From assembly GCA_029881275.1 (NCBI GenBank), contig JAOUMX010000007.1, positions 1 to 37,852 of the forward strand: 37,852 bases of DNA, in the 5' to 3' direction. Within the stretch, counting starts at the first letter, position 1. Every line of letters begins with the position of its first letter. Below, one piece after another: positions 2,220 to 18,547 of this stretch. The translations under genes and the position numbers were made by a program. The stretch is from Gammaproteobacteria bacterium (GTDB lineage Bacteria > Pseudomonadota > Gammaproteobacteria > SZUA-229). The notes beneath the pieces are model-generated. The model ran no database searches and was not told the DNA's origin. It saw only the letters and a program-made list of their open reading frames with translations.

Positions 2220-2894
2220 ATGCTGCTATCCATTCCTAATGTACTCAATCAGCAACAATTAAAAACGGTTCATCAGCTGATCGAATCTTCACGTTTTATT
2301 GATGGCCGCTTAAGTGCTGGCGTAACCGCTCGCAAAGTCAAAAACAATGAAGAAATCCCACAGGATGCTCAAAGCATTAATCAACTGAATAATATCGTAA
2401 TGAATGCCTTGTATAATCATCCCGTCTATCAGGCAGCGGTTTTTCCTCACCGTGTCGCAACCCCCTTTTATGCCCGTTATACTCCGGGTAAGGCCTATGG
2501 TGACCATGTTGATGACCCCATCATGGGACCGATAGGTGGACGTTATCGTACCGATGTTTCAACCACTGTTTTCCTATCCGACCCGAATGATTACGAAGGC
2601 GGCGAAACCGTTATTCGCACCCAGTTTGGCGATAGAAAAGTCAAACTCGCAGCCGGTGATGCCATTACCTATCCATCGGGCAGCCTGCATCATGTTGCTG
2701 AAGTAACTTCAGGCACACGCCTGGTCGCGGTTACCTGGGCACAGAGCATGATTCGTGAACCGGAAAAACGTGAATTGCTGTATAACCTGCATAAAACTCG
2801 TGAATCGTTACAGAAAAAATACCCTGACGATGATGAAGTCGTGAAGATTGATCACACCTACATCAATCTGGTGCGCATGTGGACAGAGATTTAA
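2220..2894 (+). CDS. PKHD-type Fe(II)/2-oxoglutarate-dependent hydroxylase (PiuC/YbiX family)
   Basis: 224 aa; LSAGVTARKVKNNEE, GDHVDDPIMG (HxD) and YPSGSLHHVAEVTSGTRLVAVTWAQS. Confidence 0.9.
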   Translation: MLLSIPNVLNQQQLKTVHQLIESSRFIDGRLSAGVTARKVKNNEEIPQDAQSINQLNNIVMNALYNHPVYQAAVFPHRVATPFYARYTPGKAYGDHVDDPIMGPIGGRYRTDVSTTVFLSDPNDYEGGETVIRTQFGDRKVKLAAGDAITYPSGSLHHVAEVTSGTRLVAVTWAQSMIREPEKRELLYNLHKTRESLQKKYPDDDEVVKIDHTYINLVRMWTEI

Positions 2895-2935
2895 AAGCTA
2901 TCTACCGCTAAGACATAAAACAATAAAAGCAAAAG

Positions 2936-3068
2936 TACGTAAAAATTAGGAATTTTGTTCAAGACCAAGGCATAAACGGTTTTTTTAAACCGGAGTTAAC
3001 AAGTCGTTAATGAGGATTTAAAAATAACCGTTTTAACGCAGGGATTGGACAAAATAACAATTTTTAAA
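2936..3068. repeat. Long imperfect inverted repeat (MITE-like or REP-like intergenic element)
   Basis: Left arm ACGTAAAAATTAGGAATTTTGTTCAAGACCAAGGCATAAACGGTTTTTTTAAACC matches, imperfectly, the reverse complement of the right half (TTAAAAATTGTTATTTTGTCCAATCCCTGCGTTAAAACGGTTATTTTTAAATCC). Confidence 0.6.
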
Positions 3069-3070
3069 TA

Positions 3071-3100
3071 AAAAAGGCCGCTCTATTGAGCGGCCTTTTT
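3071..3100. terminator. Intrinsic bidirectional terminator
   Basis: AAAAAGGCCGCTC-TATT-GAGCGGCCTTTTT perfect 13-bp arms between convergent genes. Confidence 0.88.
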
Positions 3101-3124
3101 AGATTATCAGCTTAAGAAAAAATC

Positions 3125-3328
3125 TTAACGCTTAGAACCTTTATCAGCATGTGCAGCATCAACCAGTTGCATTGCCTTTTCATTAAATGTCTGACGGTAA
3201 CCGTCTAATACGTGACCTGCTTCAGGAGTGAAGTAGTTTTTAGCATCGAAGCCGTTTTTGTGCTCTTCTTCGATGAATTTTTTCTGCATATCCAGCAGTT
3301 CTTTAATCAGTGTATTTCTATCGCTCAT
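3125..3328 (-). CDS. Small hypothetical protein (67 aa)
   Basis: ORF with upstream SD-like GAGGTGAAGGC on the - strand; followed by a terminator. Confidence 0.7.
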   Translation of the reverse strand: MSDRNTLIKELLDMQKKFIEEEHKNGFDAKNYFTPEAGHVLDGYRQTFNEKAMQLVDAAHADKGSKR

Positions 3329-3456
3329 GCCTTCACCTCATGAAGTCTGTATTTATTCCGGCTGATCATTCGACCAAAGTGGGCGAATTATAGCCGAAAC
3401 CGAATCCCATTGCCTCTACCCCAATGGGAATAGAGTGCAATATTTAAAAAAGCAGC

Positions 3457-3777
3457 TTAATAGCCGCCTTTACGCGTACTCTTTGGGCAACCACCAATTT
3501 TCAGGCCCTGCTTGGAAGGCATGCCGGGGAACATTTCATACATTTCTTTAGAAGAAACCTTACGACCCCAGATTTTACCCATTTCTTTCATAATGCTACG
3601 CTCATTGGGCTCATTACCACCCAGTGTTTCTTCACGTACATATTTAACAACATCCCAGTGCTCCTGGGTTGGCTCAATACCTTCTTCTTTGAAGATTTCT
3701 GCCGCAATTTCTTCATTCCAGTCACCAGAATTTACCAGGTAACCTTCTTCTGTTCTTTCAACTGACTCAAGTGCCAT
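3457..3777 (-). CDS. DsrC/TusE-family sulfur relay protein paralogue lacking the canonical C-terminal cysteines
   Basis: EGYLVNSGDWNEEIAAEIFKEEGIEPTQEHWDVVKYVREE and YEMFPGMPSKQGLKIGGCPKS align with DsrC at 9761-10093; the CysA and CysB positions are not Cys. Confidence 0.88.
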   Translation of the reverse strand: MALESVERTEEGYLVNSGDWNEEIAAEIFKEEGIEPTQEHWDVVKYVREETLGGNEPNERSIMKEMGKIWGRKVSSKEMYEMFPGMPSKQGLKIGGCPKSTRKGGY

Positions 3778-3883
3778 GATATTGCCTCTAGATTCAATTT
3801 ATTAATCAAAAATTTAGGGCGCCTACTTTCCCACAATTTCCCTGTGATGTCACTTATCCCTTTAGTTATAGATAGCGACTATC

Positions 3884-4600
3884 TCAGGTACCACTAAAAT
3901 GGGATTTTTCAGACATGTCACCCACCGGTTTTATACCTTTATGCGGTATAAACAAACCAAATCCCATTTTACGGCCTGCTCCAAGCCCCTTGTGCTGCAG
4001 GGTAAAGGCATCTTTTGGATCCAGATCGGCAACCATCAGACTAATGGTTTTTACCTTGCCTTCCGGTAATCTAAACTCATGATCAATTCCACAGAGTACT
4101 TTTTTAACGGAAATATCATAAGAACGCATTTCATTAACAACTCTTTCCAGGAATAAATCTTCCGTTTCATCCTGTTCAACCTGAATATAACGCGCAAACA
4201 GCGTTCCCATGGTTGTCAGGGGTTTAATCTGGGATTTGCCGACGGATACTCTGTATCCACCAACATCCAGCACCTGGCCCGTGAGAATCTGAGTATCTGC
4301 AATTCTTTCCCTCGGCACACGAAGTTGCATTCGCGCCCTGTGCGACAAATAAATAAAATCCTCATCACCCGATTCTTCCGGACGCACCCAGCCGTTACCA
4401 CTGGAAGCTCCATGAATCAAATGCACACCGGCATCTTCTTCATCCATTAACCAGGGCAAAGCAGATGACAATGCAACCGATAAATCATAGGCATGATCCA
4501 GGCCGATTTTCTTACAATCTATATTGAATGACAGATCAACGATAGTATCCGGAAGCTGAAATTCATACTTATCATCTTCTTCGTGCCAGAACAAACTCAT
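3884..4600 (-). CDS. Cas6/Cmx6-like RAMP-fold protein (type I-MYXAN Cas6 family), stand-alone
   Basis: 238 aa; VDLSFNIDCKKIGLDHAYDLSVALSSALPWL...GVHLIHG...LRVP and C-terminal Gly-rich loop GLGAGRKMGFGLFIPHKGI typical of Cas6. Confidence 0.72.
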   Translation of the reverse strand: MSLFWHEEDDKYEFQLPDTIVDLSFNIDCKKIGLDHAYDLSVALSSALPWLMDEEDAGVHLIHGASSGNGWVRPEESGDEDFIYLSHRARMQLRVPRERIADTQILTGQVLDVGGYRVSVGKSQIKPLTTMGTLFARYIQVEQDETEDLFLERVVNEMRSYDISVKKVLCGIDHEFRLPEGKVKTISLMVADLDPKDAFTLQHKGLGAGRKMGFGLFIPHKGIKPVGDMSEKSHFSGT

Positions 4601-4634
4601 AAAACTAAATTCTCTTAAAATTCATCAACTTAAA

Positions 4635-4871
4635 TTACCTATAAGGTGATGTAAATGCATTTTCCAGCTCGACTTCCCAGTTAGTCGGCGTATCCGAGAA
4701 AGGCGGCTTTACATCAATCTGAAACAACATGGCTCCTTTACGAGCGCGTTCTTTCAAGGCCTCTTTCACATCTTCAAAACTGTTTAACTCATGCTCCTGC
4801 ATGAGAACCTCACTTAAATAAAGCATGCTTACCATCCATCTAACGTATTCAAACAACACATCAGCAAACAT
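4635..4871 (-). CDS. Hypothetical protein (78 aa), coupled to the TauD-like gene
   Basis: ORF start overlaps the stop of the upstream ORF (TGATG); no family recognised. Confidence 0.6.
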   Translation of the reverse strand: MFADVLFEYVRWMVSMLYLSEVLMQEHELNSFEDVKEALKERARKGAMLFQIDVKPPFSDTPTNWEVELENAFTSPYR

Positions 4872-5746
4872 CAGGTATTTGCTACACGATCATAATATCG
4901 CGCCCTGTATAACAGTCGCTTATGAACTGCATCATCTTCAAAACCTGTGCGATTGTGCAAAATATTGTTACAAATTATACCTTCGCCCGTATTGAGTCTA
5001 TGCGTAAAAACATAAGGGTTATCTGGGGTCAATAAAGAATTTATAAAGGCCACAGCCTCTCGGGTAATGGCATTATTTGCCCATTCGATATTTCGGGTGC
5101 GGGCAGTATAGCGCATATGTAATCGCGCAGGGGTTCCAGCAACTGAGAATACCGGTCCGGATTGCGCCCCCCTTATTTCCTCACCATCCTCAATATTAGG
5201 CGGTATTGTCATTGCCTCTGCGTTCATTAACGCACTGATATAACTGGGGTTTTCATCACGTAACTGGATATAGGCTATTTCATGATCCAGCAACAGATTT
5301 TCTCCTCCTGTGGCCGCAGGGTGAGCACAGTGCATGACAATCGCTCTTATTTGCTCAGTTAACGGATTATAATAACCATCGGTATGCCAGCTAAGACGAC
5401 GGTTAGTATAAGGAATATAACCACTGTGCCGGCCGGTTTCCACCACCTGAAGAGAAGTAATGTTATCGTCATCGGCACATAAATTACCATCCAGCCTGTT
5501 CAGGCCCAGTTGCTGTCCCAGCTGTCGAACAAAATCTTTATCAACCTCATCTGCCCGCAGAACTCGATAAATAGCCAGATTAGTTTTAGCAATAACTGCA
5601 GTTAACTGCTGAACTTCTGCGGCAGAAATTGATAGCCCCTGCAAGGGAATCATCAACGCCTGGCTATCCTGCGGATAATCTGCCAGCTTTTGTTGCCGCC
5701 AGGACTGATACGCTTGCTCATTAGTCAATACAAATGGATTACTCAC
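4871..5746 (-). CDS. TauD/TfdA-family Fe(II)/2-oxoglutarate dioxygenase
   Basis: 291 aa; LSWHTDGYYNP (HxD), HCAHPAATGGENLLLDHEIAY, RARYYDR C-terminus. Confidence 0.82.
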   Translation of the reverse strand: MSNPFVLTNEQAYQSWRQQKLADYPQDSQALMIPLQGLSISAAEVQQLTAVIAKTNLAIYRVLRADEVDKDFVRQLGQQLGLNRLDGNLCADDDNITSLQVVETGRHSGYIPYTNRRLSWHTDGYYNPLTEQIRAIVMHCAHPAATGGENLLLDHEIAYIQLRDENPSYISALMNAEAMTIPPNIEDGEEIRGAQSGPVFSVAGTPARLHMRYTARTRNIEWANNAITREAVAFINSLLTPDNPYVFTHRLNTGEGIICNNILHNRTGFEDDAVHKRLLYRARYYDRVANT

Positions 5747-5958
5747 TAAATATTATCTCAACCTGTTTATGACACTATATATAAGTGTAAATTGAATCCC
5801 ATGGATTTAACCCGGAAACTTAAATGGTTATGGCGCAAAACAATAGCATAAACATTACAACCATTTATGGTCATATTAGTAACCTTTTAAGTCATTTAAT
5901 GATATATTATTGCGCCTCAGTTTCGATGTGGCTTATGGTGCATTTTGCCATGCAGTAC

Positions 5959-5980
5959 GTATATCCCATTAGGGATATGC
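5959..5980. promoter_or_regulatory. Stem-loop in the dsrA leader/divergent intergenic region
   Basis: ATATCCC-ATTA-GGGATAT perfect 7-bp arms (9 bp with one G-U as RNA). Confidence 0.45.
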
Positions 5981-6094
5981 AGATGACTTGCTCCCCCCCC
6001 ATGGGTAGGATGTTCTGCTTGCAAGACTCGCCATAGACTACCCGCACTGAGATGAGGGTGTTTTTTTGAAATCATTCTCAATAAGTTTTTAACC

Positions 6095-6112
6095 GTATGA
6101 CCCCGGTCATAC
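6095..6112. promoter_or_regulatory. Candidate operator palindrome upstream of dsrA
   Basis: GTATGACC-CC-GGTCATAC, perfect 8-2-8 inverted repeat, 77 bp upstream of the dsrA start. Confidence 0.5.
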
Positions 6113-6188
6113 ATAATTAAGTTAGGGTACAGGCGCTTACAGCTCCCCCCTAGAATAAAAACCTGTCGTCCCTACTACGGAGATCGCC

Positions 6189-7439
6189 ATGGCAGCAAAT
6201 AAGATCTATGAAACACCGATGCTGGATGTACTGGAAGAAGGTCCTTGGCCAAGCTTCATTTCTGGTATCAAAAATCTACGTGATAACCACGAGAGCCAAT
6301 TCATCAACGATATTACTAGCTCACTGTTAGGTCAGCTGGAACATTCTTATGAAACACGTAAAGGTTACTGGAAAGGCGGCACCGTTTCAGTATTCGGTTA
6401 CGGTGGCGGTATCATTCCACGTTTCTCTGAAGTAGCTAAAGCTTTCCCAGAGTCTAAAGAATTCCACACATTGCGTGTACAGCCTACTCCAGGCAACTAC
6501 TATACAACTGATATGCTGAACCAACTGGCTGATAGCTGGGAGAAAAACGGTTCAGGTCTGGTTACCTTCCACGGTCAGACTGGTAACATCATGTTCATTG
6601 GTACGACTACTGAAAAGACTCAGACATTCTTTGATGAAATCAATGAATATGGCTGGGACTTAGGTGGTGCAGGTCCATGTGTACGTACAGCAATGTCATG
6701 TGTTGGTGCAGCACGTTGCGAAATGTCTTGCACAAACGAGCATGCAGCACAACGCTGGTTAGTGAACAACTTCACTGATGACGTTCATCGTCCAGCTCTG
6801 CCTTACAAATTCAAATTCAAAATCTCTGGTTGTCCTAACGATTGTCAGAATGCTATTGAGCGTGCTGACTTTGCTGTTATCGGTACATGGCGCGATGATA
6901 TGCGTGTTGACCAGACTGAATTCAAAAACTACGTTGCAGCTAAAGGTCGTCAATACATTATTGATAACGTAATTACTCGTTGCCCGACTCAGGCTCTGGC
7001 TCTGAATGACGACGACACCATTGCTGTTGATAATCGTAACTGTGTTCGTTGTATGCACTGCATCAACGTAATGCCTAAAGCACTGCGCACAGGTACAGAT
7101 AAAGGCGTAACGATTCTTATCGGTGGTAAACGTACACTGAAAATCGGTGACCTGATGGGTACAGTTGTTGTGCCATTCAAGAAACTGGATACACGTGAAG
7201 ATTACGAGTCACTGGTTGAAATGGCTGAAGAAATCATTGATTTCTGGGCTGAAAACGGTCTTGAGCATGAGCGTTGTGGTGAAATGATCGAACGTATCGG
7301 TCTGGTTAACTTCCTGGAAGGCCTCGATATCGATGTTGATCCAAATATGGTTAGCAGCACACGTCAAAGCTCTTACGTTCGTATGGATGGATGGGACGAC
7401 GAAGCTGTTAAATGGTTTGAGCGTAAAGCTGAAGCCTAA
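6189..7439 (+). CDS. dsrA: Reverse-type dissimilatory sulfite reductase alpha subunit
   Basis: 416 aa; CVRTAMSCVGAARCEMSC siroheme/FeS motif, CPNDC, ferredoxin insert CVRCMHCINVMP. Confidence 0.97.
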   Translation: MAANKIYETPMLDVLEEGPWPSFISGIKNLRDNHESQFINDITSSLLGQLEHSYETRKGYWKGGTVSVFGYGGGIIPRFSEVAKAFPESKEFHTLRVQPTPGNYYTTDMLNQLADSWEKNGSGLVTFHGQTGNIMFIGTTTEKTQTFFDEINEYGWDLGGAGPCVRTAMSCVGAARCEMSCTNEHAAQRWLVNNFTDDVHRPALPYKFKFKISGCPNDCQNAIERADFAVIGTWRDDMRVDQTEFKNYVAAKGRQYIIDNVITRCPTQALALNDDDTIAVDNRNCVRCMHCINVMPKALRTGTDKGVTILIGGKRTLKIGDLMGTVVVPFKKLDTREDYESLVEMAEEIIDFWAENGLEHERCGEMIERIGLVNFLEGLDIDVDPNMVSSTRQSSYVRMDGWDDEAVKWFERKAEA

Positions 7440-7463
7440 GCTGTCATTCTGGTAATTAAGACG

Positions 7464-7484
7464 CCGTGGAGAAAATCTCCACGG
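7464..7484 (+). promoter_or_regulatory. Intercistronic hairpin between dsrA and dsrB
   Basis: CCGTGGAGA-AAA-TCTCCACGG perfect 9-bp stem followed by TTATTTT. Confidence 0.6.
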
Positions 7485-7524
7485 TTATTTTAAAGTTAAC
7501 AATATATAACTTGAGGAAATAATC

Positions 7525-8601
7525 ATGGCAATGGCAGATATGCGTCCGCCCATAGAGTCTGGATGTCCAGACGGTTTCCAGTACATGCATCCTACGATGC
7601 GTCGTAACTTCGGTCAGTGGAAATATCATACTGATCCACGTCCTGGTGTTCTGTGCCACGTTGCTGAAAGCGGTGAGAAAATTTTCACTGTTAAAGCCGG
7701 TACACAGCGTATCCTTGACCTGTTCACTCTGCGTAAACTGACTAAAATCGGTGATGAATTCGCAGACGGTTACATCCGTTTCACTATTCGTTCTAACATT
7801 GAGTTCAATGTTGCTGATGAAGCTAAAGTTGAGCCTTTAATCAAAGCGCTTGAAGATGCTGGTTTCATCGTTGGCGGTACCAAGAACTCCGTAACAACTC
7901 TGTCTCATACACAGGGCTGGTTACATTGTGATATTCCAGGCACTGACGCATCAGGCGTTGTTAAATCTATGATGGATGAACTGATTGACGAGTTCAAATC
8001 ATGGAACATGCCTAACCGTGTTCATTTGACAACTTCTTGCTGTCAGATCAACTGTGGTGGTCAGGGCGATATCGCAATCAACGTTCAGCACACCAAGCCA
8101 CCTAAGATTGACCACAGTCTGGTATCTAACGTTTGTGAACGTCCTTCTGTTGTTGCACGTTGCCCTGTTGCTGCGATTCGTCCTGCACTGGTTGACGGCA
8201 AACCATCTCTGGAAGTTGATGAGAAGAAATGTATCTGTTGTGGTGCATGTTTCCCTCCTTGTCCTCCAATGATGATCAACGATGCAGAACACACTAAACT
8301 GGCAGTATGGGTTGGTGGTAATCACTCAAATGCACGTGGTAAACCTACATTCCAGAAACTGGTTGCATCAGGTATTCCAAATAATCCTCCACGCTGGCCA
8401 GAAGCCACTGCCATCGTTAAGCAAATTCTGAAGTGCTACAAAGAAGATGCGCGTGATTGGGAACGTGTTGGTGAATGGGTTGAGCGTATCGGCTGGCCTC
8501 GTTTCTTTGAACTGACTGGTCTGCCATTTACCAAGTACCACATTGATAACTGGCGTGGTGCTCGTGCAAGCCTGAATGCTTCTACTCATATCCGCTTCTA
8601 A
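7525..8601 (+). CDS. dsrB: Reverse-type dissimilatory sulfite reductase beta subunit
   Basis: 358 aa; TTSCCQINCGGQGDIA and ferredoxin motif CICCGACFPPCPPMM. Confidence 0.97.
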   Translation: MAMADMRPPIESGCPDGFQYMHPTMRRNFGQWKYHTDPRPGVLCHVAESGEKIFTVKAGTQRILDLFTLRKLTKIGDEFADGYIRFTIRSNIEFNVADEAKVEPLIKALEDAGFIVGGTKNSVTTLSHTQGWLHCDIPGTDASGVVKSMMDELIDEFKSWNMPNRVHLTTSCCQINCGGQGDIAINVQHTKPPKIDHSLVSNVCERPSVVARCPVAAIRPALVDGKPSLEVDEKKCICCGACFPPCPPMMINDAEHTKLAVWVGGNHSNARGKPTFQKLVASGIPNNPPRWPEATAIVKQILKCYKEDARDWERVGEWVERIGWPRFFELTGLPFTKYHIDNWRGARASLNASTHIRF

Positions 8602-8615
8602 CTGGTGATTATGAT

Positions 8616-9008
8616 ATGAAATATGGCTTATTAATTAATGAAGGCCCCTACCAGCATCAAGCGGTAGATAGCGCATATCAGTTTGCAAAAGCTGCTATCG
8701 CTAAAGGCCACGAGGTTTTCCGCGTATTTTTCTACCACGACGGTGTAAATACTGCGACTGACTTTGCTGTTCCACCGCAGGATGATCGTAATATCACCGC
8801 GAACTGGATCAAACTGGCAGAAGAAAACAATATCGATATGGTTGTTTGTATTGCTGCGGCTCAACGCCGCGGCCTGCTTGATGCAAACGAGGCAGAACGT
8901 CAGGGAAAGCGTGGCGATAATATCGCTCCTACTTTCCGTATTTCAGGACTGGGTCAGTTAGTTGAAGCCGGTATTGAATGTGATCGTCTGTTAACTTTTG
9001 GTGACTAA
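8616..9008 (+). CDS. dsrE: Sulfurtransferase subunit DsrE
   Basis: 130 aa DsrE/TusD family; conserved Cys in DMVVCIAAAQRRG; position after dsrB. Confidence 0.95.
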   Translation: MKYGLLINEGPYQHQAVDSAYQFAKAAIAKGHEVFRVFFYHDGVNTATDFAVPPQDDRNITANWIKLAEENNIDMVVCIAAAQRRGLLDANEAERQGKRGDNIAPTFRISGLGQLVEAGIECDRLLTFGD

Positions 9009-9023
9009 TTAAAGGGTATAAAT

Positions 9024-9416
9024 ATGTCTGAACCTTGGGAAGATGATGTTGAAGGTCCGGTAAAGAAATTTATGTTCATTAACCGGAAATCTCCTTACGG
9101 CACAGTTTACGCTCTTGAGTCACTTGAAGTTGTATTGATTACAGCAGCATTTGACCAGGACGTAAGTCTGGTATTTAGTGATGACGGTGTTTTTCAGATC
9201 AAGAAAGGTCAGAAAACAGATGGCATCGGAATGAAAAACTTTTCGCCAACTTATCGCGCCCTGGAAGGCTACGATGTTGAAAAATTATACGTTGATAAAG
9301 AATCTCTTGATGAACGCGGTTTGACTCAGGAAGATCTTCTGGTTGATGTAGAAATTTTAAGTCGTGCGGAACTGGCAGACCTGATGGACGAACAAGACGT
9401 AGTTCTGAGCTTCTAA
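9024..9416 (+). CDS. dsrF: DsrF subunit of the DsrEFH complex
   Basis: DsrF/TusC-like; no Cys; position between dsrE and dsrH. Confidence 0.94.
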   Translation: MSEPWEDDVEGPVKKFMFINRKSPYGTVYALESLEVVLITAAFDQDVSLVFSDDGVFQIKKGQKTDGIGMKNFSPTYRALEGYDVEKLYVDKESLDERGLTQEDLLVDVEILSRAELADLMDEQDVVLSF

Positions 9417-9426
9417 GGAGATAATT

Positions 9427-9735
9427 ATGGCAATGTTACATACAGTAAATAAATCACCTTTTGAGCGTAATACTTTTGATTCATGTATTTCTATGGCTAA
9501 AAGTGGCAGCTCGGTACTATTAATTGAAGATGGAGTTATCGCTTCACTGAAAGGTACATCAGTATCTGACAAAGTTAGCAAAGCAATGGAAAGCGTGACG
9601 TTCTACGTGCTCGGCCCAGATCTGAATGCCCGTGGAATGACTGATGACCAGATAATTGACGGCATTAAAGTTGTTGATTACGAGGGTTTTGTAGATCTGA
9701 CTGCCGAACATGAAAATGTTCAGGCTTGGTTGTAA
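9427..9735 (+). CDS. dsrH: DsrH subunit of the DsrEFH complex
   Basis: 102 aa DsrH/TusB-like MLHTVNKSPFE...LLIEDGV. Confidence 0.94.
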   Translation: MAMLHTVNKSPFERNTFDSCISMAKSGSSVLLIEDGVIASLKGTSVSDKVSKAMESVTFYVLGPDLNARGMTDDQIIDGIKVVDYEGFVDLTAEHENVQAWL

Positions 9736-9760
9736 TTTTTTTTAAATTGGAGATAGTGAT

Positions 9761-10093
9761 ATGCCTATCGAAGTAAACGGTAAGAGCTTAGAAACAGATG
9801 AAGAAGGTTACCTGGCTAATCTGAATGATTGGGTTCCAGAATGTGCGACTGTTATGGCAGCACTGGAAGATCAGGAATTAACTGAAAGTCACTGGGAAGT
9901 TATTAACTTCTTACGTGAATACTATGATGAATACCAGATCGCTCCTGCGGTACGTGTTCTGACTAAAGCTATTGGTAAAAAACTGGGTAAAGACAAAGGC
10001 AACAGCAAATATCTGTATGAACTGTTCCCATATGGCCCAGGCAAACAGGCTTGTAAATATGCAGGTCTGCCTAAGCCAACTGGCTGCGTTTAA
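9761..10093 (+). CDS. dsrC: DsrC sulfur carrier protein
   Basis: C-terminal KYLYELFPYGPGKQACKYAGLPKPTGCV with both redox cysteines. Confidence 0.97.
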   Translation: MPIEVNGKSLETDEEGYLANLNDWVPECATVMAALEDQELTESHWEVINFLREYYDEYQIAPAVRVLTKAIGKKLGKDKGNSKYLYELFPYGPGKQACKYAGLPKPTGCV

Positions 10094-10103
10094 TTTAGAC
10101 GCT

Positions 10104-10130
10104 CAGAGGGGAGTTATATACTCCCCTCTG
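10104..10130 (+). terminator. Hairpin between dsrC and dsrM (partial terminator or attenuator candidate)
   Basis: CAGAGGGGAGT-TATAT-ACTCCCCTCTG perfect 11-bp arms followed by AATTTATTATT. Confidence 0.6.
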
Positions 10131-10181
10131 AATTTATTATTCAACTTGAAGAAATTATAGATAGTTGCGGAGTTAGACTCG

Positions 10182-10958
10182 ATGTCCACATTAATTGCTG
10201 TACTGTTGTCATTAGCCACCATTGTTATGATCGTTGGCCTTGCTCGCAAAGCTCGTCAGTACCGTGCTACTCCTGCACCCTTAAAAATTCCTGTAACACC
10301 GGCTCCTAAAACAACTGGAGGCGTTGTTCTGCGTTTAGCAAAAGAAGTTATTTTCTTTGCTTCACTGTTCCGCTCAAATAAATGGACCTGGCTGTTTGGC
10401 TGGATGTTCCATGTTGGTTTAGCCCTGGCATTTATTCGTCATCTACGTTACGTGATTGACCCTGATGGTATGCTGGGTTTCATGTGGCCATTAATTAGCC
10501 TGGAAGTTGTACAAAGCTTTGGTAAATATGCTGGCTTTGCCATGGTAATAGGTCTGCTAGGGCTGTTTGCTCGTCGCATACTGGTTGCACGAGTACGTTA
10601 TATATCTGCACCTTCTGATTATTTAATGCTGTTACTGATTATGTTCATTGGTTTCAGTGGCCTGATGATGAGTTTTGTTAGCCATGTTGATATCGTTGGC
10701 GTAAAAACTTTCATGCTTGGCATATTAAATCTAGATTTACAGGAACTACCTGAAAGCGCACCGTTAATGATTCACCTTTCATTAGTTGCCCTGCTGGGAT
10801 TCATTTTACCTGTAAGTAAACTGTTACATATTCCTGGTGTGTTTTATGCACCTACACGTAACCAGGTTGATAACCCACGTGAAAAACGTCATCTGTCACC
10901 ATGGGCTGCCAAATATGATGCAACCCGCGGCAGTGATAAAAACGCAGCGGCACAATAA
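10182..10958 (+). CDS. dsrM: DsrM, membrane cytochrome b subunit (NarI-like)
   Basis: 258 aa, multiple TM segments, NarI-like; position upstream of dsrK. Confidence 0.94.
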   Translation: MSTLIAVLLSLATIVMIVGLARKARQYRATPAPLKIPVTPAPKTTGGVVLRLAKEVIFFASLFRSNKWTWLFGWMFHVGLALAFIRHLRYVIDPDGMLGFMWPLISLEVVQSFGKYAGFAMVIGLLGLFARRILVARVRYISAPSDYLMLLLIMFIGFSGLMMSFVSHVDIVGVKTFMLGILNLDLQELPESAPLMIHLSLVALLGFILPVSKLLHIPGVFYAPTRNQVDNPREKRHLSPWAAKYDATRGSDKNAAAQ

Positions 10959-10997
10959 CCGCTTGAGCGAACAGAAGAATTTATCGAGGACTCCATA

Positions 10998-12563
10998 GTG
11001 GCTGATTTCGAAGTTCCAGAATTAAAAGAATATCCTGTGGTTCCCATGCCCAAAGATGGTGTGATGAGTCATCTCTCACCTTTCGTGGCAAAACCTGAAT
11101 TTCAGGAAGCGTTAGGCTATCCAGGTAATAAAGTTCAGAAAGAAGGTGAAGACCCAAAATACATTTTAATAGATGGCTGGAAAGAAAAAGCCATTGATAA
11201 AATGGGCGACCTTCTGGATCGCTACCGTGGTTTCCGTGTATTCATGGATTCCTGTGTAAAGTGTGGTGCCTGTACTGATAAATGTCATTACTATCTTGGT
11301 ACCAACGATGCCAAGAATATGCCGGTTGCACGCCAGGACTTATTACGCAGTGTTTATCGTCGCTACTTCACTTTTGCTGGTAAATATTTTCCAAAACTGG
11401 TTGGTGCACGTGATTTGACCGAAGACGTCGTTGATGAGTGGTACAGTTACTTCCACCAATGTTCAGAATGTCGTCGTTGTTCTGTATTCTGCCCTTACGG
11501 CATCGATACTGCTGAAGTCACTATGGCAGCACGTGAAATTCTGGCACACATCGGTAAAGGCCAGAAATACGATAACGAAATTATCGGCAAGGTATTTACC
11601 ATCGGTAACAATCTGGGTCTTCCCGAGCGCGCACTGGCCGACTCACTGGAAGGTCTGGAAGAAGATATTTTCGATGACATCGAAGTGCCCGTTAAGCTAC
11701 CGCTCGACAAAAAAGGTGCCGATATTCTGCTGGTAACCCCTTCTGCTGACTTCTTTGCAGAACCGCATGTTGATGGTCTGATGGGTTATGCCAAAGTATT
11801 CCATGCCACCGGTGCCAACTGGACGTTAAGTTCCAAAGCATCAGAAGCTGCGAACTTCGGTTTATTCATCGGTAGTTACGAAAACATGCAGCGTATTTCC
11901 ATGCGTATTCGTGAAGCAGCACTTGAACTGGGTGTTAAACGTATCGTTTACGGTGAATGCGGACATGCCTGGCGCGTTGGTTACAGCTTCCTGAATACCC
12001 TGGCAGGTCCTTTTGACTTCCTTGATCAAAGCTACCCTATTCCACAGCACATTTGTGAATACACCAAAGATGCTCTGGATCAGGGTCTACTGAATATCGA
12101 TAAATCAGCAAACGATGACATGGTTCTGACTTTCCATGATTCCTGTAACGTGGCACGTGCTTCCGGTATGGGTAACTACCCTGGTGGTCAGTTCGATATT
12201 CCACGCGCTGTTATCAAGGCAGTCTGTAATAACTTTGTTGATATGGAACCAGGCACCACTCATGACGCAACATTCTGTTGTGGCGGTGGCGGTGGTCTGC
12301 TAACAGACGACTTAATGGAACTGCGCGTAAAAGGCATATTGCCGCGTGCATCCGCATTAACAAATGCAGTAAAGGAAAACGGTGTTACTCATATGGCCGC
12401 CATTTGTGCGATCTGTAAGAGTCAGTTTACCAAGGTACTTCCCTATTATGGATTTACCATGGATCAGATTGTCAGTGTTCATCAGTTGGTCAGTAATGCC
12501 ATCGTCCTGGAAAGCCAGGGTGAGGAAGATAATGACAGCGATGACGATGACGCTGAAGAATAA
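10998..12563 (+). CDS. dsrK: DsrK, HdrD-like FeS protein with CCG domain
   Basis: CVKCGACTDKCHYYLG, CSECRRCSVFCPYGID, GECGHAWR, CCGGGGG; acidic C-terminal tail; GTG start. Confidence 0.96.
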   Translation: MADFEVPELKEYPVVPMPKDGVMSHLSPFVAKPEFQEALGYPGNKVQKEGEDPKYILIDGWKEKAIDKMGDLLDRYRGFRVFMDSCVKCGACTDKCHYYLGTNDAKNMPVARQDLLRSVYRRYFTFAGKYFPKLVGARDLTEDVVDEWYSYFHQCSECRRCSVFCPYGIDTAEVTMAAREILAHIGKGQKYDNEIIGKVFTIGNNLGLPERALADSLEGLEEDIFDDIEVPVKLPLDKKGADILLVTPSADFFAEPHVDGLMGYAKVFHATGANWTLSSKASEAANFGLFIGSYENMQRISMRIREAALELGVKRIVYGECGHAWRVGYSFLNTLAGPFDFLDQSYPIPQHICEYTKDALDQGLLNIDKSANDDMVLTFHDSCNVARASGMGNYPGGQFDIPRAVIKAVCNNFVDMEPGTTHDATFCCGGGGGLLTDDLMELRVKGILPRASALTNAVKENGVTHMAAICAICKSQFTKVLPYYGFTMDQIVSVHQLVSNAIVLESQGEEDNDSDDDDAEE

Positions 12564-12619
12564 GATCCAAAACACAACGAATTTTTAACTATACGGTTTT
12601 AGCATATAGGAGAACGAGC

Positions 12620-14590
12620 ATGGCCACTTCCAAAGAAGACATGCAGAACAAAAACTTGACTTTTCGTCGCTTCGAAGAAGGCGATTACAAATGGTCAAGT
12701 ATGCACGATAAAATTTTTGTCCAGGATACTTCACACAAGTGCCCTACCTATGTGCATCGCACACCACCCTGTCAGGGCAGCTGTCCTTCAGGTGAAGATA
12801 TTCGTGGCTGGCTGGATATTATTCGTGGTATCGAAGTTCCACCCGAAGGTGTTTCTAAAGAAGAATACGCATTCCGCCGTTCTACAACGGCAAACCCTTT
12901 CCCTGCAATGATGGGTCGTGTTTGTCCTGCACCATGCCAGACTGGCTGTAACCGTAACAATGTTGATGATTTCGTTGGCATAAACTCGGTTGAGCAGTAC
13001 ATCGGTGACAGCGCTTACGCCGGTAAATATGCCTTTGGTGATCTACCTGCTCTGGGCGGCAAGAAAGTTGCCATCATCGGTGGTGGTCCAGCGGGTATGG
13101 CTGCAGCTTACCAGCTACGTAAAATGGGCATAGCCAGCACAATTTATGATGACCACGCTGAACTCGGCGGTATGATGCGCTACGGCATTCCCGGTTATCG
13201 TACTCCACGTGACGTACTGGATCACGAATGTCAGCGTATTGTTGACATGGGTGGTGTTGAACTGAAAATGAATACTCGCGTGGGCAAAGATGTGGCAGTT
13301 GCTGACGTTGAAAAATCACATGATGCCGTACTTTGGGCATTAGGTTGTAAAAAAGGCCGTGGTCTGTTTGTTGAAGGCTGGAACGAAACACCTAACTGTG
13401 TAACAGCGGTTGAATTCCTTGAGCAGTTCAACAAGGGTGACATGAAATACACTGCCAACAAGATCCTGTGTGTGGGTGGTGGTGATACTTCTATCGACGT
13501 TGTCTCTGTATCTCGTCGTATTGGTACTCTGAAAAACTACAATGAAAATCCTGAAGATTCAGCGACTGGCAAAACCATTCATGGCGATATTAATGCTGCA
13601 GACAAAAAACCTTGTGACAGCGTTGTCTTAACAGCTCTGTTCAAACAGGAAGACATGACTGCTGCAGAACACGAAGTACATGACGCACTGCACGAAGGTG
13701 TCGTTATCATGAACGAAGTTATGCCTGTTGAAATCATTAAAGATGCTAACGGTCGTGCAACTGCTCTAAAACTGGTTGATTGTAAATTTGAAAACAATGC
13801 ACCAGTTGCCGTTGAAGGCGGTAAAGAACATATTGTTGAATGTGACATGATCGTTTCTGCAATCGGTCAGTTCGGCGATATGGAAGGCATTGAAGAAATG
13901 GACAACGGTCGTGCATTAATCGATGCTGACAAGTTCTATCAGGTTCCAGGTAAAGCCGGTCACTTCGTTTGTGGTGACATCGTTCGTCCCCACCTGTTAA
14001 CAACTGCGATTGGTCAGGCATCTGTTGCTGCTGAAGCGATTGCGGCCTATGTTAACCAGACTGAAGCTAAAAAACGTCCTAAAGTCGATGTTCATCACTT
14101 CAATCTGATGGATAAATTACATGAAGCTAATCTGGAACCTGAATCATTTGCCGATAAAGGTCTGGAAGAAGACGGCCAACGTGGAACCTGTGACAAGAAC
14201 TATGCGATTCATAACTATCAGGATCGTTCTGAACAGGAAATTATTTCGACTGATCAGATGTTCCTGGGTCACTTCGGTTTTGAAGAACGTAACCTGCGTA
14301 CTGAAGATGTACCTTCTTCTGACGAAGTTCTGGGTCACTTCCATGAGCGTATGAATGGTCTTGCTGAAGAACAGGCTGTTGCTGAAGCTGGCCGCTGCAT
14401 GAGCTGTGGTATGTGCTTTGAGTGTGACAACTGTGTGATTTTCTGTCCACAGGATGCTGTCTTCAAAGTTAAGAAAGACAAACACACAACTGGTCGTTAT
14501 GTAGACACTGACTACAGTCGTTGTATCGGTTGTCATATTTGTGCTGATGTTTGTCCTACCGGTTATATCGACATGGGTATGGGCGAGTAA
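12620..14590 (+). CDS. dsrL: DsrL, NAD(P)H:acceptor oxidoreductase (GltD-like) with C-terminal ferredoxin domain
   Basis: 656 aa; IIGGGPAGMAAAYQL, CVGGGDTSIDV, CMSCGMCFECDNCVIFCP, CIGCHICADVCPTGYI. Confidence 0.96.
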   Translation: MATSKEDMQNKNLTFRRFEEGDYKWSSMHDKIFVQDTSHKCPTYVHRTPPCQGSCPSGEDIRGWLDIIRGIEVPPEGVSKEEYAFRRSTTANPFPAMMGRVCPAPCQTGCNRNNVDDFVGINSVEQYIGDSAYAGKYAFGDLPALGGKKVAIIGGGPAGMAAAYQLRKMGIASTIYDDHAELGGMMRYGIPGYRTPRDVLDHECQRIVDMGGVELKMNTRVGKDVAVADVEKSHDAVLWALGCKKGRGLFVEGWNETPNCVTAVEFLEQFNKGDMKYTANKILCVGGGDTSIDVVSVSRRIGTLKNYNENPEDSATGKTIHGDINAADKKPCDSVVLTALFKQEDMTAAEHEVHDALHEGVVIMNEVMPVEIIKDANGRATALKLVDCKFENNAPVAVEGGKEHIVECDMIVSAIGQFGDMEGIEEMDNGRALIDADKFYQVPGKAGHFVCGDIVRPHLLTTAIGQASVAAEAIAAYVNQTEAKKRPKVDVHHFNLMDKLHEANLEPESFADKGLEEDGQRGTCDKNYAIHNYQDRSEQEIISTDQMFLGHFGFEERNLRTEDVPSSDEVLGHFHERMNGLAEEQAVAEAGRCMSCGMCFECDNCVIFCPQDAVFKVKKDKHTTGRYVDTDYSRCIGCHICADVCPTGYIDMGMGE

Positions 14591-14604
14591 AACAGGAGAT
14601 TGTA

Positions 14605-15069
14605 ATGCTGCAGTTGAAACAACTCATGCATAAATCCTTATTGATGGTGATTGGAAGTGCCTTACTGGCACTTTCAACAGCCGTTTATGCTGATGGCGAT
14701 AAAGCATCTTTCATGCCTGACATTCCTGAACCTAAGGATGAAAGTCTGAAATGTGTTCAACCTGAAGATGAAATGAAAAAAAATCACATGGAGTATATAC
14801 TTCATCAACGTGATAAGACTCTGCGTGAAGGTGTTCGTACCAAACAATATAGTCTGAAAGAATGTATCAATTGCCATGTAGAGAAAAACTCTACAGCACG
14901 CTTTGGTGATGACAAACACTTCTGTAGCAGCTGTCATAATTATGCAGGTGTTACCATTGACTGTTTCCAATGTCATGCTGACCGTCCAAGTAGCAATAAC
15001 AAACATTCACAAAGTACATCTTCGTTTCCTCACTATGCTGACAACTCAGTCGAAGGAGCGTCGAAATGA
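14605..15069 (+). CDS. dsrJ: DsrJ, triheme periplasmic cytochrome c
   Basis: CINCH, CSSCH, CFQCH; signal peptide; start at 14605 preferred (SD ACAGGAG) over the track start 14551, which overlaps dsrL. Confidence 0.93.
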   Translation: MLQLKQLMHKSLLMVIGSALLALSTAVYADGDKASFMPDIPEPKDESLKCVQPEDEMKKNHMEYILHQRDKTLREGVRTKQYSLKECINCHVEKNSTARFGDDKHFCSSCHNYAGVTIDCFQCHADRPSSNNKHSQSTSSFPHYADNSVEGASK

Positions 15070-15809
15070 TCGAAAAAACCATTAATTTTTCACGTCGCAT
15101 TTTTGTTGAAAAAACGGCGACTGCTGTAGCCGGTCTTAGCATTGCACCCGGTGTGTTTCTCAATCAGGTCGCTCAGGCTAAACCAGCTGACCAGGCAGTG
15201 ACTTCAGATGTTCGTTGGGGCATGTTAATCGATACCAACAAGTGCGCTACTGGTTGCACTGCCTGTGTATCTGCCTGTAATGAAGAAAATGGTATTCAGT
15301 CACATAATCGTCCTGCAACAGATCAGGTCTGGATACGTAAAGTTAAATTACGTGACAAACAAACGGGTCATGTAACTTCCCTGCCTATGATGTGCCAGCA
15401 TTGTGAACACCCGCCCTGCGTTGATGTTTGCCCTACAGGTGCCTCAATGAAACGTGAAGACGGCATTGTTCTGGTTGATAAACACATTTGTATCGGTTGT
15501 CGTTACTGTATGATGGCCTGCCCTTACAAGGCACGTTCATTTGCACATGAGACGGTAACAGATCCTAAAGAATATGCACCTCGTGGTAAGGGTACAGTTG
15601 AAGCCTGCACATTATGCGTACATCGCGTTGACGAAGGCGGCACACCAGCCTGTGTCGAAGCCTGTAATGCCGCAGAACACGGTGCAATGATCTTTGGTGA
15701 CCTGAAAGATCCTAATAGCGAAATATCAAAAGAACTTGAGAAACACGGCGGCAAGCAAATCCGTGCCGATCTGAATCTTAACACGGGTGTTCGTTATCAG
15801 GGCATTTAA
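15066..15809 (+). CDS. dsrO: DsrO, periplasmic FeS protein (Tat-exported)
   Basis: SRRIFVEKTATAVAGLS Tat-like signal; multiple 4Fe-4S motifs; 4-bp overlap with dsrJ. Confidence 0.95.
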   Translation: MIEKTINFSRRIFVEKTATAVAGLSIAPGVFLNQVAQAKPADQAVTSDVRWGMLIDTNKCATGCTACVSACNEENGIQSHNRPATDQVWIRKVKLRDKQTGHVTSLPMMCQHCEHPPCVDVCPTGASMKREDGIVLVDKHICIGCRYCMMACPYKARSFAHETVTDPKEYAPRGKGTVEACTLCVHRVDEGGTPACVEACNAAEHGAMIFGDLKDPNSEISKELEKHGGKQIRADLNLNTGVRYQGI

Positions 15810-15841
15810 GCAAAAAGTATTAGAGCTTAGTTGAAATCACT

Positions 15842-17065
15842 ATGAAAAAAATACACTTACAAGAAATTGATGGAAACAGCATGGGCTATCTTGGCCTGCT
15901 GGCATTTTTAGGTGCTTTTGTTCTGGCAGCTTTAGGCTCAACCTATTATATGGAACATAATGGACACTGGGTGACTGGCATGAACAACCAGATCGTCTGG
16001 GGCATGCCGCATGTATTTGCTGTTTTCCTCATCGTAGCCGCATCCGGTGCACTGAATGTGGCTTCTATATCATCCGTATTCAACCAGAAGATATACAAAC
16101 CGCTAGCGCCACTATCAACTCTGTTAGCCCTGTCGCTACTGATTGGTGGCCTGATGATACTGGTACTGGACCTGGGGCGCCCTGATCGTCTTATCGTGGC
16201 CATGACCAAATACAATTTCAAATCTATCTTTGCATGGAACATGATTCTGTATAACGGTTTCTTTGTCATTGTTGGTGTCTATGCATGGTTCATGCTGGAT
16301 CACACCATGAAAAAATACAGTCGTTATGCCGGTTTTGCTGCCTTTATCTGGCGTCTGGCACTGACCACTGGTACTGGTTCCATCTTTGGCTTCCTGGTGG
16401 CGCGTCCTGGCTATGACATGGCCATGATGGCACCTATGTTTATCATTATGTCATTCTCATTTGGTCTGGCGATCTATTTGCTGGTACTGATGGCATCATA
16501 CAACTGGACACAACGCCCACTGGGCGATGTTGTTGTTAACCGCTTACGTAAACTACTGGGTGTTTTTGTTGCTGCCGTACTCTACTTTGTAATTGTTTAT
16601 CATCTGACCAACCTTTATGCGACAGAGCATCACGGTTTCGAAGCCTTCATGCTTCTTGGTGATAATGGCGGTTCCAAGTACTCAAGTATTTTCTGGGTAG
16701 GCCAAATCCTGTTGGGCAGCCTGATCCCACTGGCAATGATTTATGCCCCCGGTGTTGCAAATTGCCGTAAAACACTGGCGACTGCCTGTGTGCTGATTAT
16801 CATTGGTGGACTGGCTCAGATGTATACTATCATTATTGGTGGTCAGGCTTATCCGATGGAAATCTTCCCTGGTATGGAAGTACTGGAAACCACGTTTGCT
16901 GATGGTGCCACAACAATCTATTCTGCATCACTACCTGAAATCCTGCTGGGTCTGGGTGGCATTGCAATGTCCTTGATTGTGGTTGCTCTGGGCATTAAAG
17001 TACTCGGCTTCCTGCCACAAAGTCTTGATGATGCCACTGTAGATCCTCATCACAAAGCTGATTAG
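15842..17065 (+). CDS. dsrP: DsrP, NrfD/PsrC-family integral membrane quinone-interacting subunit
   Basis: 407 aa, NrfD-like polytopic protein directly after dsrO. Confidence 0.95.
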   Translation: MKKIHLQEIDGNSMGYLGLLAFLGAFVLAALGSTYYMEHNGHWVTGMNNQIVWGMPHVFAVFLIVAASGALNVASISSVFNQKIYKPLAPLSTLLALSLLIGGLMILVLDLGRPDRLIVAMTKYNFKSIFAWNMILYNGFFVIVGVYAWFMLDHTMKKYSRYAGFAAFIWRLALTTGTGSIFGFLVARPGYDMAMMAPMFIIMSFSFGLAIYLLVLMASYNWTQRPLGDVVVNRLRKLLGVFVAAVLYFVIVYHLTNLYATEHHGFEAFMLLGDNGGSKYSSIFWVGQILLGSLIPLAMIYAPGVANCRKTLATACVLIIIGGLAQMYTIIIGGQAYPMEIFPGMEVLETTFADGATTIYSASLPEILLGLGGIAMSLIVVALGIKVLGFLPQSLDDATVDPHHKAD

Positions 17066-17120
17066 AATTAAACAGTATTCGAGCACTTTGGTTACAGGGT
17101 GACGAATTATAACTGAACAG

Positions 17121-17155
17121 GACAACGGCTCGAAGACACTCTTCGAGCCGTTGTC
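17121..17155 (+). terminator. Strong hairpin between dsrP and dsrN
   Basis: GACAACGGCTCGAAGA-CAC-TCTTCGAGCCGTTGTC perfect 16-bp arms, short T tail (ATTTT). Confidence 0.7.
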
Positions 17156-17173
17156 ATTTTAAGAATACTAAAT

Positions 17174-18547
17174 ATGTCGCGTCTATTAATATCAGCAGCA
17201 CATAAATCGTCAGGTAAAACAACCATTACGATTGGACTGTGTGCAGCACTGGCTGAAAAAGGACTGGCTGTACAACCTTTCAAAAAAGGACCTGACTACA
17301 TTGATCCCATGTGGTTAAGTCGTGCATCTGGCCGCCCCTGTCATAATCTTGATTTCTATACCATGCAGGCTGACGAAATCATCGATACAGTTGCTCACAA
17401 CACACAAAATTCTGACATCACTATCATAGAAGGCAACAAAGGCCTTTACGATGGGCTGGATCTTGACGGTAGCAATTCAAATGCGGCACTGGCCGAGTTA
17501 CTCAAAACGCCGGTCATTCTGGTTCTCGATGCCCGTGGCATGACCCGAGGGATTGCACCTTTAATACTTGGCTATCAGGCATTCGATCCTGATATTCATA
17601 TTGCCGGCGTTATCCTTAACCAGCTGGGTGGCAGCCGTCATGAAAGTAAATTACGCTCCGTAATCGAACACTATACAGATATTTCAGTAGTCGGAGCTGT
17701 ATATCGTAATCATCATCTTTCAATCGATGAACGACACCTGGGCCTTATACCCAGCAATGAAGATCAGTCCGCTGATAAAAAGATCCGTCAAATTCGTGAT
17801 ATTGTCAAAAGCCAGATTGATCTTAAGCTGATCATGGATATAGCAAAACAGGCTCAACCCATCAGTGCACATAGTCAGGCCAGAACCAGCACATCTAAAA
17901 AAGATTTACGTATTGGTATTGTTAAAAACAGTGCGTTTGGTTTTTATTATCCAGGCGATCTTCAGGCACTTGAAATGGCTGGCGCCGAACTTATCAACAT
18001 TGACACGATTAGCGATCAGCGATTACCCGACATTGATGGTCTGTTCATTGGTGGTGGCTTCCCGGAAACACGCATGGAAGAACTGGCCGCCAATACCAGT
18101 ATGCGAAATGAAATTAAGACTGCCATAGATAATGGTCTGCCAACGTATGCTGAATGTGGTGGCTTAATGTACCTCAGTCGTAGCCTTCAATGGAAAGATA
18201 AAACAGCTGATATGGTTGGTGTTATACAGGCCAATACTGTCATGCATGAATCACCTCAGGGGCGAGGATACATACGCCTGCAGGAAACATCTGAACACCC
18301 CTGGAAATCGCATACAATAGATGGAAAAGAAATTGCAGGACATGAATTCCACTATTCAGCACTGGAAAACATTGATCCCTCACTGCATTTCGCATACCGT
18401 ATACTACGTGGTAGCGGTATTGATGGGCAACATGATGGCATCATTTACAAGAATCTGCTTGCCTGTTACGCACATCTTAGAGACACGCGAGCCAATCACT
18501 GGGCTATCCGCTTTGTTGATTTTGTCAGACAATGCAAAGACAGTTAA
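17174..18547 (+). CDS. dsrN: DsrN, cobyrinate a,c-diamide synthase-like (siroheme amidation)
   Basis: 457 aa; SAAHKSSGKTTITIGL P-loop, KKGPDYIDPMWL, C-terminal GATase domain AECGGLMYL; dsr context. Confidence 0.93.
   Translation: MSRLLISAAHKSSGKTTITIGLCAALAEKGLAVQPFKKGPDYIDPMWLSRASGRPCHNLDFYTMQADEIIDTVAHNTQNSDITIIEGNKGLYDGLDLDGSNSNAALAELLKTPVILVLDARGMTRGIAPLILGYQAFDPDIHIAGVILNQLGGSRHESKLRSVIEHYTDISVVGAVYRNHHLSIDERHLGLIPSNEDQSADKKIRQIRDIVKSQIDLKLIMDIAKQAQPISAHSQARTSTSKKDLRIGIVKNSAFGFYYPGDLQALEMAGAELINIDTISDQRLPDIDGLFIGGGFPETRMEELAANTSMRNEIKTAIDNGLPTYAECGGLMYLSRSLQWKDKTADMVGVIQANTVMHESPQGRGYIRLQETSEHPWKSHTIDGKEIAGHEFHYSALENIDPSLHFAYRILRGSGIDGQHDGIIYKNLLACYAHLRDTRANHWAIRFVDFVRQCKDS

Follow-up and report, generated by a model that had tools for sequence, protein, structure and literature searches.

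The protein encoded beside dsrA in the window analysed here, which is the whole 37,852-nt stretch of contig JAOUMX010000007.1 (GCA_029881275.1; Gammaproteobacteria bacterium, SZUA-229) within which all positions are counted, is a bona fide member of the Cas6 family, and we consider it almost certain that it is tied to the Dsr system and stands outside any CRISPR-Cas system. Rather than serving an immune system, it probably handles RNA in sulfur oxidation and has been overlooked there. A preliminary description of this DNA had already suggested a Cas6-type RAMP protein belonging with Dsr and not with CRISPR, and this was borne out by its co-occurrence with dsrA, the lack of association with Cas1, the conserved synteny, the histidine, the Gly-rich loop and the fold. 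Its naming of the protein as Cas6/Cmx6-like likewise held, as the cut-offs of both PF09559 and TIGR02807 were passed and the structure model lay nearest to Cas6 chains. It had seen no CRISPR array or other cas genes, and the window indeed has no array-like repeats and no cas neighbours of Cas6; a search of the genome for cas genes, which it had proposed, gave neither Cas1 nor Cas7/DevR and only sub-threshold Cas3, and the pairing of Cas6 with a DsrC-like gene, whose conservation it had left to be checked, recurred in 86 of 99 loci. Of the three outcomes that it had named as speaking against it none came up, with arrays looked for in the window.

Family, fold and site residues of the Cas6-like protein

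The 238-amino-acid protein matched PF09559 with 192.8 bits (7.6e-57; cut-off 26.7) and the NCBIfam model TIGR02807 (cas6_cmx6) with 116 bits, above the curated cut-off of 98.85, and PADLOC Cas6 models matched it as well. The closest solved structure, both by sequence (profile E 2.2e-25) and by fold, was Cas6 from the Cascade of a type I-B CRISPR-associated transposon (PDB 8fcj, 8fcu), which works in a CRISPR RNA-guided transposon complex and has Asn at the position of the Dsr-linked histidine. A structure model was built from a shallow alignment of 5 sequences (pLDDT 64.7, pTM 0.65), and when it was searched with Foldseek the 13 best PDB matches were all Cas6/Cse3-type chains (prob 1.00, TM 0.55-0.60), with 8fcu_B at the top (E 3.4e-12). 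As modelled, the protein thus takes the RAMP fold (tandem ferredoxin/RRM-like).

We aligned 83 Dsr-linked proteins with six CRISPR Cas6/Cmx6 proteins and examined the conservation of single residues. His36 of the DH motif was kept in 81 of the 83 Dsr-linked proteins, while G207, G213 and G215 of the Gly-rich loop before the last strand were invariant (83/83). In the model His36 is placed after the first strand (strand 20-28, helix 37-47), which agrees with the motif position described in PMC3150331; there, a histidine after the first strand is catalytic in active Cas6 proteins and the Gly-rich loop is a hallmark, with the authors' caveat that the histidine is perhaps structural in some families. 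The Dsr-linked proteins also have conserved positions of their own, namely W5, H60, H63, R88, G171, H220 and K221, together with a GNGWxRP insertion. They are therefore alike to the Cas6/Cmx6 of type I-MYXAN (TIGR02807, PF09559; for example those of cyanobacterial plasmids) in family, length, DH-motif histidine, C-terminal Gly-rich loop and RAMP fold, but share only ~23-27% identity with them and differ in these clade-specific residues and the insertion; moreover, the type I-MYXAN proteins have Cas3, Cas7/DevR, Cas5, Cas8 and Cas1 as neighbours, whereas the Dsr-linked clade has dsr genes.

In a phylogenetic tree a branch with support 98 separated the Dsr-linked proteins from six CRISPR Cas6/Cmx6 proteins, five of which (5/6) were located in cas operons; these comparators came from cyanobacterial plasmids, hence one phylum, and are too few to tell whether the Dsr clade had a CRISPR origin. 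Distances between Cas6 proteins were correlated with those between DsrA proteins (Mantel r 0.71, exceeding every one of 5000 permutations), and the inheritance of Cas6 in dsr genomes is vertical-like. With dN/dS values of 0.03-0.12 wherever synonymous change was unsaturated, Cas6 is under strong purifying selection. No viral copy of Cas6 was found with the one peptide pattern that was searched.

Linkage to dsrA and independence from CRISPR

Our survey of 276 Gammaproteobacteria genomes covered PF09559, dsrA and Cas1. Both Cas6 and dsrA were present in 88 of them, Cas6 only in 4, dsrA only in 3 and neither in 181 (Fisher p 6e-63); this p-value overstates the independence of the genomes and is too strong, because the sampled genomes share kinship, yet the pattern spans many families. 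Loss of Cas6 was rare in the dsr-positive Gammaproteobacteria (3/91). The two genes lay on one contig in 67 genomes, and in 66 of these they were within 6 kb of each other, always divergent, with a median gap of 1703 bp; the remaining genome (G153) has Cas6 40 kb from dsrA, and other genomes carry Cas6 on a separate contig. When the flanks of Cas6 were read in 99 loci, which span 51 families, a divergent dsrA was found within 7 kb in 76 loci (41 families) and a DsrC-like gene directly downstream of Cas6 in 86 loci (40 families). A phylum-wide sample gave the same picture, with Cas6 in all five dsrA-positive Gammaproteobacteria (5/5), in none of the 32 dsrA-positive genomes outside the class (0/32), and in no dsrA-negative genome.

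On the other hand, Cas6 was not associated with Cas1 in the 276 genomes (odds ratio 1.28, p 0.36). Cas1 was absent from the source genome, Cas7/DevR was found neither there nor in its relatives (0/116), and the Cas3 matches in the source genome were all below cut-off and fell on helicase-like proteins. Within the 37.9-kb window there were no direct repeats with CRISPR spacing and no cas genes near the Cas6-like gene. Cas6 without Cas1 was observed in single-contig genomes (e.g. G072, G087, G097 and G131 of our set) and also in genomes of 1.0-1.1 Mb (G092, G184, G283 and G311).

A separate case was noticed on plasmid pGMOR1 of Gloeobacter morelensis (locus L125, 7974-8765), where an annotated Cas6/Cmx6 gene has no cas neighbours and is surrounded by genes for PAPS-reductase-family proteins, a cupin protein and DNA methyltransferases; this is perhaps another Cas6 outside CRISPR.

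The dsr locus, its hairpins and the neighbours of Cas6

The preliminary description had reported five co-oriented open reading frames transcribed away from dsrA, and we confirmed all five on the minus strand at the coordinates it gave. The first two, for the TauD-like and the 78-amino-acid proteins, overlap by one base (4871), and a divergent gap of 442 bp separates the TauD-like gene from dsrA. The features of the locus are as follows.

3070..3101, strand not assigned: terminator of the cluster, an inverted repeat between an A-run and a T-run, past the 67-amino-acid protein gene
3125..3328, minus: 67-amino-acid protein, no family assigned, final gene of the cluster
3414..3435, minus: imperfect palindrome CTCTATTCCCATTGGGGTAGAG, promoter/operator element of the 67-amino-acid protein gene, at a constant 30 nt before a -10-like TATAAT
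3457..3777, minus: DsrC-family paralogue with a KGGY end, both canonical C-terminal cysteines missing
3884..4600, minus: Cas6-family (PF09559 / cas6_cmx6) protein, 238 amino acids, presumed catalytic His36, Gly-rich loop GLGAGRKMGFGLFIPHK at residues 205-221
4635..4871, minus: 78-amino-acid protein, with homologues of family DUF6967 (PF22295) in another class's dsr-bearing genomes
4871..5746, minus: TauD/gamma-butyrobetaine-hydroxylase-like Fe(II)/2-oxoglutarate dioxygenase, GTG start, HTD motif, divergent from dsrA
5962..5977, plus: palindrome TATCCCATTAGGGATA upstream of dsrA, operator-like, with no second copy in the genome at up to 2 mismatches
6189..7439, plus: dsrA, divergent partner of the cluster
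7463..7485, plus: dsrA/dsrB intercistronic hairpin, candidate Cas6 substrate
10103..10131, plus: dsrC/dsrM intercistronic hairpin, candidate Cas6 substrate

We compared folding energies with those of dinucleotide shuffles to locate structured RNA. The dsrC/dsrM junction was strongly structured (mean z -3.06 in 75 genomes, 63% of them below -2) and the dsrA/dsrB junction less so (mean z -1.44 in 82 genomes), while controls within genes gave mean z -0.44 (inside dsrA) and -0.08 (inside dsrK). Among 65 dsrC/dsrM hairpins GGGG occurred in the 5' arm of 38 and in the 3' arm of 1, and a T-rich stretch followed in only 21; with such G-rich 5' arms and few T-rich tails, most dsr junction hairpins are therefore unlike simple terminators. 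Both junction hairpins are candidate Cas6 substrates. The region downstream of the 67-amino-acid protein gene was strongly structured as well (mean z -3.62 in 64 genomes). In the cluster's own gaps we found no structure beyond terminators and the promoter element, and in an Rfam search of 2500-17200 every match was below gathering score and located on the terminator.

Several other candidates were set aside. The 120 bases before dsrA were not unusually structured across genomes (mean z -0.47), so of the earlier proposal that dsr mRNA is the target, the part concerning the dsrA leader fell away; for the rest, the conserved hairpins at dsrA/dsrB and dsrC/dsrM are candidates. For a tRNA, the other target that it had named, no evidence turned up, nor for a sulfur-relay role in RNA modification. 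A pairing at the start of dsrA (AGGG..CAGG with CCTG..CCCT) was confined to the closest relatives. The dsr loci outside the class could not serve as a hairpin control, being mostly dsrABL loci with no dsrC/dsrM junction. The CTCTATTCCCATTGGGGTAGAG hairpin between the DsrC-like and 67-amino-acid protein genes was also ruled out as a Cas6 target. In 15 compared genomes its GGG(G/T)TA stood 30 nt (29 in one) from the -10-like hexamer, and the related motifs TATCCCATTAGGGATA, TATTCCCATTGGGGTAGAG and TAACTAAAGGGATAAGTGAC lie upstream of dsrA (5962-5977), the 67-amino-acid protein gene (3414-3435) and the DsrC-like gene (~3830-3875, minus); because of this fixed spacing and of the kin motifs upstream of dsrA and the DsrC-like gene, we regard it as a promoter element. 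The motifs hint at a transcription factor devoted to the dsr region.

The DsrC-like protein matched PF04358 with 87.3 bits (1.1e-24) and TIGR03342 with 74.3 bits (cut-off 53.5). It shares the conserved core and the C-terminal arm of DsrC / TusE (PF04358) but differs from them at the C-terminus, where all the paralogues listed have an invariant KGGY end and both redox cysteine positions (GCV end, CysB) are changed; the atypical DsrC of the preliminary description is thus correctly named. The separate DsrC of the dsr operon (9761-10093) keeps both cysteines. Since both are replaced in the KGGY protein, it should be unable to carry the DsrC trisulfide. Cys-less DsrC paralogues are called Rsp proteins in the literature. 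The idea that Cas6 and the DsrC-like protein form one functional module was not supported, as the KGGY protein is encoded, at a distance from dsrA, in 4 of the 5 dsr-bearing genomes inspected beyond the class as well as in no fewer than 2 of the 3 dsr-positive Gammaproteobacteria devoid of Cas6, and some Cas6 genes have no DsrC-like gene nearby; the KGGY protein is therefore Dsr-tied yet separable from Cas6. According to PMC5944118, a DsrC-like gene lies just past the dsr cluster in another dsr genome as well, and DsrC of Allochromatium vinosum, as cited there, binds DNA upstream of dsr. These two points make a regulatory role for the Cys-less paralogue plausible by analogy.

The TauD-like protein gave a TauD profile match of 67.5 bits. 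Genes for TauD and the 78-amino-acid/DUF6967 protein adjoin dsrA also in dsr-bearing genomes outside the class that lack Cas6 (L170, L172, L173 and L174), and therefore belong to an older part of the dsr neighbourhood. In many Gammaproteobacteria an extra gene of ~220-250 amino acids, missing from the window, lies between the 78-amino-acid protein gene and Cas6 (for example L143 9341-10177 and L056 7650-8345, oriented coordinates); its product has the motifs DSDGAAVAAAVA...VQDDWWFDRDAI..LP and no Pfam family. The cluster is flanked by genes for a PKHD-type Fe(II) dioxygenase (2220-2894, plus) and a 106-amino-acid protein (1815-2135, minus), whose position is kept in most relatives.

Proposed role, alternative explanations and significance

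Cas6 proteins cleave RNA at the base of hairpins in a metal-independent manner, and from this family knowledge the same metal-independent hairpin cleavage is predicted for the Cas6-like protein. We propose a domesticated, CRISPR-independent Cas6 in the oxidative Dsr system of Gammaproteobacteria which would bind and cleave RNA of the dsr locus, a proposal whose chances we put at about even. Cas6 would bind structured RNA from the locus and, most likely, cut it at a hairpin base with no need of a metal ion; how segments of the dsr mRNA are processed, or how stable they are, would be set by this cleavage. The conserved dsrA/dsrB and dsrC/dsrM hairpins would be, by conjecture, the best candidate substrates, and a cut 3' of the hairpin would leave the latter as a 3' end that protects the dsrA and dsrABEFHC segments. 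The KGGY protein is more likely to be a non-catalytic sensor or regulator of the sulfur state than a sulfur carrier, and that it might couple Cas6 to the sulfur state is a conjecture. A wider version, in which a CRISPR-less Cas6 endoribonuclease is a core and near-universal part of reverse-Dsr sulfur oxidation in Gammaproteobacteria and acts on polycistronic dsr mRNA, processing it at the hairpins between cistrons and so setting the stoichiometry of Dsr proteins, we advance only as a tentative and rather doubtful one.

Several observations weigh against cleavage of these RNAs by the Dsr-linked Cas6. Confidence of its structure model is moderate (pLDDT 64.7) and drops below 50 in the Gly-rich C-terminal end, one beta-type Cas6 member has Tyr at the His36 position, and although the His motif is kept, cleavage activity is a prediction from sequence. 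The RNA substrates are candidates only, and the two hairpins have stem sequences that differ inside one genome as well as from genome to genome, as those of a classical Cas6 recognition site would not. A sequence common to the two hairpins was sought and rejected, as their within-genome likeness was weak (p 4e-4) and inseparable from base composition and ancestry. The dsrA/dsrB hairpin was equally common in dsr loci lacking Cas6 (5/8) and having it (55/79), and the small difference seen for the dsrC/dsrM hairpin (4/8 lacking, 61/72 having Cas6; p 0.037) is confounded by phylogeny.

The Dsr-linked Cas6 may instead bind a structured dsr transcript and not cut it, acting as a regulator of translation or stability and using the histidine for binding or structure. 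The structural role allowed for this residue in some Cas6-group proteins (PMC3150331) would fit, as would W5, H60, H63, R88, H220 and K221, which differ from the compared CRISPR Cas6 proteins and suggest a changed site; however, His36 is conserved as strongly as the Gly-rich loop over 51 families, and we hold this explanation to be unlikely. We give the same low standing to a RAMP fold repurposed for a role away from RNA, such as helping to assemble or regulate one of the Dsr proteins (DsrC-KGGY, TauD or DsrAB). Strict linkage to a metabolic operon, a DsrC paralogue adjoining Cas6 in 86/99 loci and the clade-specific conserved residues would all suit such a protein, but it would have no need of the RNA-binding Gly-rich loop and the presumed catalytic histidine, both of which are kept.

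Blocks of dsr genes can be transferred together, and with Cas6 beside dsrA in most genomes it could be a mere passenger, its linkage reflecting co-transfer of the block. We find this very improbable in view of the purifying selection on Cas6, its rare loss (3/91 dsr-positive genomes) and its retention in 1.0-1.1 Mb genomes and where it lies on another contig or 40 kb from dsrA (G153). Hardly any weight, and slightly less still, is left for the reading that this is a CRISPR Cas6 working for an array in another part of the genome, its place next to dsr being a coincidence. It is true that the protein passes the NCBI equivalog cut-off for type I-MYXAN Cas6, and that in type III systems Cas6 can serve other loci in trans (PMC12669027). 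Against this stand the missing Cas1 association (p 0.36), a source genome with neither Cas1 nor DevR and with Cas3 below cut-off, DevR in 0/116 relatives, the divergent orientation to dsrA of all linked Cas6 genes, and comparators that sit in complete cas operons (5/6) on the opposite side of the support-98 branch.

We found no description of a dsr-linked Cas6 in the open-access literature (most subscription papers lay outside the search), where Cas6 and dsr together led only to papers with Cas6 as part of CRISPR systems, and reviews on CRISPR exaptation and classification, searched by keyword, do not mention one. The dsr operon is among the best-studied loci of sulfur oxidation, and a conserved neighbour of dsrA has seemingly been overlooked because annotation pipelines call Cas6 a CRISPR protein. 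The names 'type I-MYXAN CRISPR-associated protein Cas6/Cmx6' (TIGR02807) and 'Cas6 Crispr' (PF09559) on dsr-linked proteins are likely a systematic misannotation, and matches to these models, when counted as evidence of CRISPR in Gammaproteobacteria, will give false positives. If our proposal is true, the Dsr-linked Cas6 would clearly exemplify a CRISPR-family RNase at work outside CRISPR, or else be the descendant of a pre-CRISPR RAMP nuclease, and it would suggest that free-living and symbiotic bacteria control dissimilatory sulfur oxidation post-transcriptionally.

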